Part shown: piece after piece, positions 42,601 through 60,600 of the stretch
Layout of the letters: every line of letters begins with the position of its first letter
Position numbering within the stretch: the first letter of the stretch is position 1
Notes under the pieces: generated by a model
Seen by the model: the letters and a program-made list of their open reading frames with translations, nothing else
Databases searched by the model: none
What the model was told of the DNA's origin: nothing
Program-made: the position numbers and the translations under genes
Assembly: GCA_963855995.1 (NCBI GenBank)
Contig: OY979730.1
Location: 8,843,300 to 8,907,299 of the forward strand
Length of the DNA: 64,000 bases
Direction of reading: 5' to 3'
From: Muricea muricata
Taxonomy: Eukaryota; Cnidaria; Anthozoa; Malacalcyonacea; Plexauridae

Positions 42601-45600
42601 AATCTTTTGTTGCAAACATCACATTCATAAGGTTTCTCTCCTGTGTGTGTCCTTTTATGGACTACTAAGGTCCGTGCACGTGCAAATCTTTTGTTACAAA
42701 CATCACATTCGTAAGGTTTCTCTCCTGTGTGTTTTCTTTTGTGTTCTACCAAGCGACTTGGTCTTGTGAATCTTTTGTCGCAAACATCACATTCATAACG
42801 TTTGAACTCTTCTCTGTGCGTCCTTTTATGTCTTGGAAAATTTGTTAAAATTATTTTGTTACGCAACTCGCATTTTTTGGCCATGCTTTAGCTTTCGAAC
42901 GCTGCTTTTAACGTTGCAATTCTTTTGATATTAAAACCGAACTGTCGGAACAGATTCTAGGAGGAAAGTATCAAAGTGGCGCCTAAATGAAAGGCACTAG
43001 ATAGGATCGAGTAAAACCACGGCGAGCCCGCAATAAGTTAATATTTCATACATTTGACAGCGGTGCCTACAAGCACGGTGGTATGTACTTTATCTTATGC
43101 GACTGGAATGGATCCGCGTTACAATTCTATGACATATAGGCGCCAGTCCACATAGGTCAATAAACGATGTATCTATAAATACCATAACCAATATACACAC
43201 TATAGGTTCTATAGGTACTATTATTATAGGTTTTATAGGTACTATAGGTTTTATAGGTACTATAGGTTTTATAGGTACTATAGGTACTATAGGTTTTATA
43301 GGTGCTATAGGTTTTATAGGTTTTATAGGTGCTATAGGTTTTATAGGTACTATAGGTTTTATAGGTACTATAGGTTTTATAGGTTCTATAGGTACTATAG
43401 GTTTTATAGGTACTATAGGTTTTATAGGTTTTATAGGTGCTATAGGTTTTATAGGTACTATAGGTTTTATAGGTTTTATAGGTGCTATAGGTTTTATAGG
43501 TACTATAGGTTTTATAGGTACTATAGGTTTTATAGGTTCTATAGGTACTATAGGTTTTATAGGTGCTATAGGTTTTATAGGTACTATGGGTACTATAGGT
43601 TTTATAGGTACTATAGGTTTTATAGGTACTATAGGTTTTATAGGTACTATAGGTTTTATAGGTACTATAGGTTTTATAGGTACTATAGGTTTTATAGGTA
43701 CTATAGGTTTTATAGGTTCTATAGGTACTATAGGTTCTATAGGTACTATAGGTTTTATAGGTACTATAGGTACTATAGGTTTTATAGGTTTTATAGGTAC
43801 TATAGGTACTATAGGTTTTATAGGTACTATAGGTTTTATAGGTTCTATAGGTACTATAGGTTTTATAGGTACTATAGGTTTTATAGGTTTTATAGGTGCT
43901 ATAGGTTTTATAGGTACTATAGGTTTTATAGGTACTATAGGTTTTATAGGTTCTATAGGTACTATAGGTTTTATAGGTGCTATAGGTTTTATAGGTACTA
44001 TGGGTACTATAGGTTTTATAGGTACTATAGGTTTTATAGGTACTATAGGTTTTATAGGTACTATAGGTTTTATAGGTACTATAGGTTTTATAGGTACTAT
44101 AGGTTTTATAGGTACTATAGGTTTTATAGGTTCTATAGGTACTATAGGTTCTATAGGTACTATAGGTTTTATAGGTACTATAGGTACTATAGGTTTTATA
44201 GGTTTTATAGGTACTATAGGTACTATAGGTTTTATAGGTACTATAGGTTTTATAGGTTCTATAGGTACTATAGGTTTTATAGGTACTATAGGTTTTATAG
44301 GTTTTATAGGTGCTGTAGGTTTTATAGGTACTATAGGTTTTATAGGTACTATAGGTTTTATAGGTTCTATAGGTACTATAGGTTTTATAGGTGCTATAGG
44401 TTTTATAGGTACTATGGGTACTATAGGTTTTATAGGTACTATAGGTTTTATAGGTACTATAGGTTTTATAGGTACTATAGGTTTTATAGGTACTATAGGT
44501 TTTATAGGTTCTATAGGTACTATAGGTTCTATAGGTACTATAGGTTTTATAGGTACTATAGGTACTATAGGTTTTATAGGTTTTATAGGTACTATAGGTA
44601 CTATAGGTTTTATAGGTTTTATAGGTGCTACAGGTACTATAGGTTTTATAGGTACTATAGGTTTTATAGGTTCTATAGGTACTATAGGTTCTATAGGTAC
44701 TATAGGTTTTATAGGTACTATAGGTACTATAGGTTTTATAGGTTTTATAGGTACTATAGGTACTATAGGTTTTATAGGTTTTATAGGTGCTACAGGTACT
44801 ATAGGTTTTATAGGTACTATAGGTTTTATAGGTTCTATAGGTACTATAGGTTTTATAGGTACTATAGGTTTTATAGGTTTTATAGGTACTATAGGTACTA
44901 TAGGTTTTATAGGTTTTATAGGTGCTACAGGTACTATAGGTTTTATAGGTACTATAGGTTTTATAGGTTCTATAGGTACTATAGGTTCTATAGGTACTAT
45001 AGGTTTTATAGGTACTATAGGTACTATAGGTTTTATAGGTTTTATAGGTACTATAGGTACTATAGGTTTTATAGGTTTTATAGGTGCTACAGGTACTATA
45101 GGTTTTATAGGTACTATAGGTTTTATAGGTTCTATAGGTACTATAGGTTTTATAGGTACTATAGGTTTTATAGGTTTTATAGGTGCTATAGGTTTTATAG
45201 GTACTATAGGTTTTATAGGTACTATAGGTTTTATAGGTTCTATAGGTACTATAGGTTTTATAGGTGCTATAGGTTTTATAGGTACTATGGGTACTATAGG
45301 TTTTATAGGTACTCTAGGTTTTATAGGTACTATAGGTTTTATAGGTACTATAGGTTTTATAGGTACTATAGGTTTTATAGGTTCTATAGGTACTATAGGT
45401 TCTATAGGTACTATAGGTTTTATAGGTACTATAGGTTTTATAGGTTTTATAGGTACTATAGGTACTATAGGTACTATAGGTTTTATAGGTACTATAGGTT
45501 TTATAGGTACTATAGGTACTATAGGTTTTATAGGTACTATAGGTTTTATAGGTACTATAGGTACTATAGGTTTTATAGGTACTATAGGTACTATAGGTTT

Positions 45601-57600: not shown

Positions 57601-60600
57601 GATAAAGTACATACCAGCACGGTTACATAAGCAGTATAAATTTAGTTTTTAACGGCAAGCTTTCCATTGGCCGTATTAGTTCAGTGGTCTAGGTCGCGCG
57701 CTTCTGGCCTGTTTGTTCCGGGTTCGAGCCCAGTCACGGGCTTGTGTTATATACCTTTTTTTTTCTTAATTTTTTGAGTACTTTTTTTTCTTATATTTTT
57801 ATATTTTTTCTTATTAAAACTATTCTCACTCACTATTCTCACTCACTGGGACTGTATCTACTTCACCAAATTTAGCTAAAGCGGGAGCCCGAAGGGCGAG
57901 TAAGGACTCGGCCCGCCGTGGTTTTACTCGATCCTATCTAGTGCCTTCCCGCCTAAATTGTTTGCTGCTGTCGTGTCAGGAGCCTGGGTACAAGGTTGTG
58001 CATCCACCTCAGGTTGAACAAATTTCCAATGATGAAGTGTAGATTTCATAGATTGAAATTCTCAGACTATTTCATATTTACAAATTGTTTACGAACGGTC
58101 GCATCGCTTTGCATTGAACATAATAATAAATACTTGTTAAGCAAAGAAAGTGATCATGTCGTTTTGTACTGTCAACTTAACTAGTAGAACTTGTGTGAAA
58201 CTAGTGTCGACTAGTGTGAAATACTAGTAGTGGCCTCTGTATGCCACTGGAAAATATACATAAATACAACAGCATGCTAATGCCAGATCGTCGTGTAAAC
58301 TTTACATGTATTGATGTCTATTTTCCAGACTCCAGTGGTGTACAGTAAACTGCAGTATAGCTAGCACTGGTTTGAGTGTTAGCTGTGTTGTTTTTTCTTT
58401 TAGCATTCAGTAATCTACTCGGGAGTCAGCTGCGCGGACGCCTAAAATCAAGCAGTTCAGATGCTAGTGTGTTTTGTTCTTCTATAGATTGGTCAAGCGC
58501 GTTCGCGCGTACACGCAATTTTGTTCTGGTTTGACAGAAATTGTGACACAAATAAACCCGCATCGCAGGTACCAGCCACAGAAGAGAACACAGGGGAAGA
58601 CCCGGCCTACAGTAGTAGCACCCCGACGTAACAGTCAAGGTGTGTTCATCGTAGCTCCTTCTTTTGTCCGTGAAATTGGTGCTGGTGCAAGCACAGCAAC
58701 CTCTTATTTACCAGTTCTACCGCAAACGCTTCTAATCTGCCAGCGATTGGAATATCGTCCGTATCTATTCTTCAAATTATCTTAAAACAGGCTTGAAACA
58801 GGTTCAGAAGAGCGTTATTGTATAGCTAGGGTTCGGAGAACAGCGTTTAGAAATAGCTGATTTTTGTGGCTCCGGGTTATCATTGGCGACCTTCAACTTG
58901 GCAAAATCGTGGCAGTCAAGTGGTTGTTCCTGGTATGATTATATAGACTTGACAAGCATCCTCTTAATAGCAGGAAAATGTGGGGGTGGGGGAGAGGAGA
59001 CGGGGGAGACGAGACGGGGGAGGAATCCTCCTAGCGCGGCTACTGCGTTATTATAACCTGGCTTACTTGTACAGTTATGTCCGTCACCATCAAATCCTTG
59101 ATTACAGGTACATGTGTATGAACCGTCCGTATTTGTGCACTGCGCATGCTCATGACACGACATGGGTGATCTTTCACATTCGTCTATGTCTAAAAAAAGA
59201 CGAGACACTTGGATGAACATGCAGAGCCGCTCTACGGGCGTGGCAAGAGCGTTCTTATTATTTAGAAGGATGTTCATACATATATCCGCATTCTGCCCGA
59301 CGAGTTTCTTTTGAAATAGAACTTTCCGGTAATCACGTCACAGCTAACACTGTCTGCAACTTAGGGCCACCTTAAATACAGTGGATTTTAGGTTCGTTTC
59401 TCACAGGCTATGGTCAGAGGCGCAGGACATCCTTCGTCAATACATGCATAAAAAAGAATTTTGGATTTTGACCAATAAATGTGGAAGTAAGCTTAAACGT
59501 GAAACCAACGCTGAGAGGCCAATACTCTCAGCCTCGTTTTCGTGTTTAAGCTTTTTTTACATTTATTGGTCAAAATCCAAAATTCTTTTTATGCATATGT
59601 TGACGAACTAACGAAGGATTTTCTGGACCTCTGACCATAGCTGTAAGAAACAAACTAAAAGTCCACTGTATTTAAGGTGGTCCTAAGTTGAAAACAGTGT
59701 TAGCTGTGACGTAATACCGGACAGGTCAATCCGAGTTGAATACCGAGGAGGGATTTATATCATATAAAGACATTTTGAGGTATTTAACTAACTTGATTTC
59801 TTTTTGAGAAGGTTTTCTAAAAGAGTCTTTTGACTTTAAACAATTTAAATCAAGTTTCTTCGAGATGTCTCCACAAATTTCATCTTATTATTTCTTCAAA
59901 GTATTTATCAGAGATATCAGACTCATGAACTGCCCTTGAGTCTTGACTCGATTAAATTTTTTTTCCACCTTGCTCAATGCTCTCACCTTCCGTACACGTG
60001 GGTCCATGATATCCCGTCAACGTGCAATTGCATGTTGCTGAACTCTCGCCAGATGGAACACAAACACCGTTATTTTCACAAATTTTACGTCGCTTATTGC
60101 ACAGAGTCAGGCTACAATTACCCGGAGTGACGTGAGATCTTAGTCCATCAATATCATCCACTGGCATCATTGAGCTATTATCTGGACCATACTTGATGTT
60201 TCTGAAGCACCCAATAAAAAAGCCTCTGAAAAAATCAGACATGGAGGATGTTACACGAAAGTGAGACAATTTTATGTCTTTCAGTGGTGAGACAATATTT
60301 TACGAACTAACCAAAAACGTCACAGAAATGTTGTAAGTTGCCAGCTTCTGGAACTTAAAGGCACAGTGCAGCCTTTCAAACCATGTGATTTTATGCTTTT
60401 TTATTGAAGAAACTAATTACAAAATTCAATTGGCAATTGAAGAAATCCGCCTGTTCGAGGGTAGATTAAAGATGGCGAACATTTTAAGTGTATTTACAAA
60501 GTTTTAGTATGCTCGATAAATGTTTATGAAGTGTGTTGAAAGTGAATCATGGTTTTAGTAGTATACATCACAAGCGATACATTTTCCGTGCTTCAATTGA

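Follow-up and report, generated by a model that had tools for sequence, protein, structure and literature searches.

How a 14.5-kb DNA palindrome came to lie in the genome of Muricea muricata, and whether the palindrome itself is what moves, are the questions raised by an insertion at 43080–57615 of the window, a 64,000-nucleotide stretch of contig OY979730.1. A preliminary description of the window had proposed the palindrome as the mobile unit, and this is borne out: the same centre recurs at 21 loci, the copies lie between differing exact 8-bp duplications, and unfilled copies of the target are present. We consider it highly probable that the insertion is one copy of a young, non-autonomous family of palindromic DNA transposons, mirrored from the end of a 36-kb giant element of Mutator-like element (MULE)/IS256 type and moved in trans.

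Structure and spread of the palindrome

The insertion has AGCACGGT on either side as a direct 8-bp duplication, and GGTATGTACTTTATCTTATG occurs exactly at 43080–43099 (+) and 57596–57615 (−), an arrangement found in none of 100 shuffles; the exact duplications and inverted ends claimed previously were thus recovered at their limits. The whole arms measure 6.2 and 8.1 kb, with a 226-bp centre between them, and the flanks of the element are not mirrored. The inner arms, said earlier to align without an indel because paired positions sum to 98859, match over 2,888 bp with neither mismatch nor indel. The outer ends differ at one position in 119, against none in 2,660 for the arms, a contrast too weak to argue from (p = 0.04). 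Read inwards, each arm consists of an outer end, a 9/18-bp array, an internal end copy, a 9-bp array and a transposase gene facing the centre. The internal end is a second copy of the terminal 56–58 bp, oriented like the nearer outer end. The window element thus has the long inverted ends with internal tandem repeats that define Foldback elements. Its features are as follows (a dot marks features without strand).

42987–43079 (.) target repeat, left part, tRNA/short interspersed element (SINE)-like by eye
43072–43079 (.) left 8-bp target duplication, AGCACGGT
43080–43198 (+) outer terminal inverted end (GGTATGTACTTTATC...), one mismatch to its mirror in 119 bp
43199–46640 (.) outer minisatellite, 9/18-bp units, 3.4 kb
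46429–49316 (+) left inner arm, 2,888 bp identical to the right
46830–46885 (+) internal copy of the terminal end, of the inner type that ends the giant elements
46908–47206 (.) inner minisatellite, 9-bp unit
47369–49516 (+) transposase pseudogene, longer arm
49315–49451 (+) three exact copies of a 45-bp unit
49517–49542 (.) 26-bp AT-rich palindrome-junction sequence, common to the copies, its AT run varying by 2–4 bases
49543–51490 (−) transposase pseudogene, shorter arm
49543–52430 (−) right inner arm, coordinates summing to 98859 with the left
51653–51951 (.) inner 9-bp minisatellite, mirror (computed 51658–51951; start by symmetry)
51974–52029 (−) internal end copy, mirror (limits from the sum 98859)
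52221–57495 (.) outer minisatellite of the other arm, 9/18-bp units, 5.3 kb
57497–57615 (−) outer terminal inverted end, mirror
57616–57623 (.) right 8-bp target duplication, AGCACGGT
57624–57760 (.) target repeat, right part, end approximate and set by eye

At the centre, the left arm follows the transposase gene to base 49516, where the 26-bp AT-rich insert intervenes before the mirror arm; the latter begins approximately 200 bases further out, making the fold asymmetric. A search for the origin of the insert elsewhere in the window returned only short, mostly AT matches. The fold is also a place of repeat growth: the 45-bp unit is present three times in the window core and once in each of 10 other cores, while a different, 121-base unit is duplicated at the centre of the C16 (two copies) and C10 (three copies) elements.

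The 453-Mb genome that holds the window was searched for relatives, and all locus counts given here are lower bounds. The terminal-sequence pattern was found exactly at 88 places (reversed control, 0) and resolved into two sorts of end, outer-type TTTATC..GCGACTGG (G replaces A in a few) and inner-type TTCATC..GGGACTGG. At seven loci the order outer, inner, approximately 5 kb, inner, outer is complete. Eleven cores, the window included, were picked for examination by having both inner-type ends visible (a looser match was accepted for the window). Each of the 11 is palindromic, that of C10 in pieces, and has the same 61-bp centre at 93.8–100% identity. A 30-base pattern across the junction was found at no fewer than 21 loci (18 exact, two with one mismatch and one with two; control, 0). 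Searching the genome at the protein level gave at least 61 matches, with 54 of 226 candidates scored, in at least 27 loci; convergent pairs make up 22 of the loci, and the junction is present in 21 of these. The same fold at so many places implies one origin and later copying.

Exact 8-bp target duplications flank 14 of the 16 palindromic copies with both ends read. The absence of further loci with such termini and duplications would have refuted the preliminary description, and that refutation did not occur. Elements ending in inner-type ends gave six of seven, the duplication at C4:8886976 not matching, and the total for all elements was 20 of 23, within the 8–11 bp given for MULEs in the available part of PMC6446971. 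This count leaves out C3:57787402, one end of which lies beyond the examined stretch, and loci read on one side only (e.g. C5, C12, C10, C4:10152960 and C16). When left and right flanks were paired across different elements, only two of 506 pairings were exact, both between the window copy and C9:10770683. The latter interrupts a different copy of the target repeat at the identical position, and the left flanks of the two diverge after 93 bp, indicating separate insertions. The differing flanks and duplications of the copies also argue against a single segmental duplication carrying all 21 junction loci. The unfilled target repeat, with a single AGCACGGT, was found at 133 places when up to three mismatches were allowed, 47 being exact; tRNA and Rfam scans with default thresholds found nothing in the window. 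The flanks of the palindromic C9:9473936 and the giant C3:55812097 are nearly equal (GGAA CCAATCGG GAAC and GGAA CCAATTGG GAAC), possibly a shared target type.

Transposase genes and giant elements

Each arm was described previously as holding two minisatellites and its own transposase gene. The minisatellites stand, and genes are present, but they appear broken from their sequence, so that a working double-transposase machine does not survive scrutiny. In the longer arm of the window copy, frame damage and a TAA lie near the gene start, the DDE core is open (open reading frame (ORF) 47567–49564) and the OTU domain is cut after its first part; the shorter arm has the same start damage and stops before the OTU domain (ORF 49481–51292). 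The arms were compared over ten copies, giving 20 arms, with C10 dropped for its disrupted core. All 20 carry frame damage within the first 70 or so codons relative to the open gene described below, and 19 have a common shortening near the gene start, with 55 bases (53 in one C9 arm) in place of 78. At the 3′ side, the gene of one arm is truncated early in the OTU domain and that of the other arm immediately ahead of this domain. Unlike the window copy, with its open DDE core, several other copies have stops there. We also tested whether selection maintains the transposase within the palindromes, and this was not supported: the ten copies hold 69 in-frame changes, 14 silent and 55 replacing, where 27.6% silent would be expected, giving no sign of purifying selection (p = 0.22) in what is a rough test, counting changes per site over related copies.

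The encoded enzyme is predicted to fold like the IS256/MULE transposase ISCth4, which was the best structural match (model residues 1–417, 10–12% identity) and places it with the IS256/MULE-like DDE folds; Hermes ranked far below it. Protein P0041 matched Transposase_mut with an E-value of 0.027. The window proteins matched no hAT profile in Pfam, nor KDZ at E up to 1, with no direct comparison made to KDZ. Relatives of the enzyme combine an N-terminal DUF6729-like region with a C-terminal OTU domain; none was found in viral contigs by protein profile or by end pattern.

Open frames of 846 residues were found at two loci, C3:44722840-44725305 and C14:7291728-7294193; their match to a full-length relative runs from residue 7 to 817 and takes in the OTU domain. 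The C3 gene sits in a 36-kb transposon (C3:44708678-44744577) that terminates in inner-type sequences and is flanked by an 8-bp duplication (CTATGGGT); its ends are Foldback-like, carrying 18-bp minisatellites of 4.7 and 3.2 kb. Upstream of the gene lie a 9-bp array, an internal inner-type end, an 18-bp array and one outer-type end. No partner for this outer end was found to the left with eight mismatches allowed, or to the right within the element by exact pattern, and the sequence just past it occurs at only two places in the genome, the two open-gene loci. Shared ends and 95.2% identity between the window arm and the giant over 4,167 bp are as expected of a giant derivative. Only 5–13 substitutions in 1.9–2.0 kb separate the 20 arms from the C3 open gene, so the palindromes are young. 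By sequence, we class the family as Foldback-like, MULE-type and non-autonomous.

Other features of the giants were recorded. Besides its open gene, the 36-kb element contains another transposase-like ORF that is divergent, at 28% identity over 306 residues, an ORF matching CXC weakly (E 0.0044, below the cut-off), a DUF3987 ORF (E 3.4e-20) and, by eye, an ORF like those of long interspersed elements (LINEs) that splits the left-end minisatellite in two. Paired inner-type ends, separated by approximately 27 to 60 kb and flanked by exact 8-bp duplications, occur at C1:34436242, C2:59910122, C3:17958744, C3:55812097 and C6:13995324; among the matches listed, none to the transposase falls inside them, and they are giant, perhaps non-autonomous elements. 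At C2:54831834-54834236, an open and full-length relative of the transposase, 41% identical to the query protein, perhaps represents a second autonomous family.

Origin of the fold and likeness of the arms

The fold is visible in the sequence, 26-bp insert included. The event behind it would have mirrored one giant end once, taking in the end sequence, a minisatellite, a second end, a second minisatellite and approximately 80% of the transposase gene. Breakage or stalling of an end, which then folded back along its own strand, would fit an asymmetric fold with an insert. The mirror copy would have supplied a second outer end, after which everything between the two outer ends could be mobilised. 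Transposase from elsewhere, most likely encoded by the open C3 (44.72 Mb) and C14 (7.29 Mb) genes, would act in trans, recognising both outer ends and cutting out or copying the palindrome. Insertion would follow by an 8-bp staggered cut, of which the duplications are the visible trace; conversion would hold the arms alike while minisatellite lengths change freely. It may quite possibly be that this is a transposon born by mirroring, in which one fold-back event turned a giant's solitary internal end, along with the adjoining transposase gene, into a two-ended element that has since reached at least 21 loci, conversion between its arms keeping them alike. Such a birth would suggest a route by which a one-ended piece of a large transposon becomes a transposable unit in one step. 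Long palindromes are unstable in many systems, and the family offers a natural experiment on them, with multi-kb palindromes copied whole, their arms kept similar and repeats expanding at the fold. The single shared junction makes its age, source and spread directly testable.

A real possibility, if a somewhat doubtful one, is that over-long end repair took place inside an ordinary outer-type element, giving terminal inverted repeat (TIR) structures of the form TIR1-F1-F1-TIR2 as for Galileo; the giant's outer end would then be the relic of a nested element. Such a mechanism has been proposed for Galileo (PMC3573991, available part), ORF pieces within inverted ends are on record (PMC4168063, likewise), and template switching in TIR elements, Foldback FB4 among them, is discussed in the available text of PMC8277862. 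Against it, the search revealed no ordinary outer-type element, though one may have been lost. Convergent pairs account for 22 of the 27 transposase loci listed, two are the open genes beside inner-type ends, and the other three are the 41% relative (C2), a degenerate locus (C1) and a single unopened match (C12).

Returning to mirroring of a giant end, followed by copying of the whole, we asked how the arms of one copy relate to each other. Mates differ by 0–16 changes in approximately 2 kb, nonzero in eight of the ten copies; arms from different copies differ by 5–20 (mean 12). Mates agree in 318 of 326 comparisons over 33 informative sites, as against 2278 of 2934 for non-mates; none of 10 000 shuffled pairings reaches the value observed, and for 14 of the 20 arms the mate is the sole nearest arm. 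Twenty-five of 69 element-private changes are present in both arms. Since mates group together, where separate evolution of the arms from a single origin predicts long arms grouping with long, conversion between the arms of a copy is likely on these comparisons, and is incomplete at best. Two copies, C3b (C3:55307691-55320427) and C4, have a common 124-bp deletion in the same arm only, which shows directly that a palindrome was copied in its entirety when its arms were unlike.

Polishing can average inverted copies that closely resemble each other, and mate likeness might then have been made by the assembly rather than in the animal. We think this improbable, given that 44 of the 69 private changes are retained in one arm only and that arm-specific deletions are retained as well.

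A cruder artefact, the mirroring of one half of an ordinary transposon through a misjoin or a fold-back read, would give just the 100% identity seen over 2,888 bp in the window. On indirect evidence it is nevertheless very unlikely: the flanks are unmirrored and bear a direct 8-bp duplication, the same asymmetric junction recurs at 21 loci, mates mostly differ, two copies share an arm-specific deletion and the outer arrays are unequal in length.

Tn5 and Tn10 are composite transposons, with two inverted arms each carrying a transposase gene. Every arm here likewise has a transposase gene, along with an outer-type and an inner-type end, and could be imagined as an independent transposon within such a composite. 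In contrast to Tn5 and Tn10, neither arm has an end at the centre, and the two genes are broken; the two ends of an arm point in the same direction rather than being opposed, and the inner end is bordered by constant element sequence, not by a duplication, making a composite most improbable. Neighbouring insertions could yield convergent gene pairs, but the tail-to-tail insertion of two ordinary elements fused independently at each locus is least credible of all, since one junction at 21 loci points to one origin and the outer ends bear matching duplications.

Several observations weigh against our reading of the window element as a copy of a family mirrored from a giant, moved in trans and converted between arms. 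A founding palindrome within a giant was not found in the genome search. The short arm of C3b lacks the shared shortening and is out of frame by other damage, being either an ancestral remnant or converted from an open copy. One convergent locus, C2:51374165, lies outside the 21 junction places, and two of the 16 palindromic copies lack an exact duplication (one with a single mismatch, one non-matching). For six of the 20 arms, the mate is not the only nearest arm, and the private changes confined to one arm noted above tell in the same direction. Finally, the window proteins matched no MULE family in Pfam at E up to 1.

Known relatives and the rest of the window

The preliminary description did not recognise the form. 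Foldback-type elements are in fact known in which the inverted ends are long and tandemly repeated and incorporate internal sequence, as the available parts of PMC3573991 and PMC4168063 describe. In the available descriptions, Galileo, a Foldback-like member of the P superfamily in Drosophila, resembles the present family in having such ends, with internal and ORF sequence recruited into them, 98–100% identity between the ends of one copy and 7–8 bp duplications. It differs in its P-type transposase and in that more than 500 bp of ORF was recruited in one copy, whereas here most of the transposase gene is mirrored, in a family with one shared fold. Tm1, a Mutator/Foldback element of root-knot nematodes, likewise combines a MULE-type transposase with Foldback-like ends, tandem repeats unequal between ends and non-autonomous groups; it has 9-bp duplications and a Phantom-type transposase with FLYWCH, and a mirrored transposase gene is not mentioned in the available part of its description. 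ISCth4 and the IS256/MULE transposases differ from the enzyme here in sequence (10–12% identity), and the relatives here add the DUF6729-like region and the OTU domain. Ginger1 is an animal DNA transposase that also has a C-terminal OTU protease domain, with a Gypsy-integrase-like DDE core where the best fold match here is of IS256 type (PMC2836005, in the part available). In the available portions of the literature found on palindromic, Foldback, OTU-bearing or giant MULE elements (including PMC6446971, PMC4168063, PMC2836005, PMC3169594, PMC3573991 and PMC8277862), no palindromic family with a mirrored transposase gene is described.

Elsewhere in the window, arrays with an 84-bp period lie at 5647–6561, 8891–9787, 25012–25782, 30766–31752, 38689–39311 and 41574–42884, and correspond, wherever an ORF is listed, to minus-strand C2H2 zinc-finger units. 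At 20106–21764 and 23104–23694 there are reverse-transcriptase-like ORF pieces, together with a short ORF that by eye resembles the end of a GIY-YIG endonuclease.

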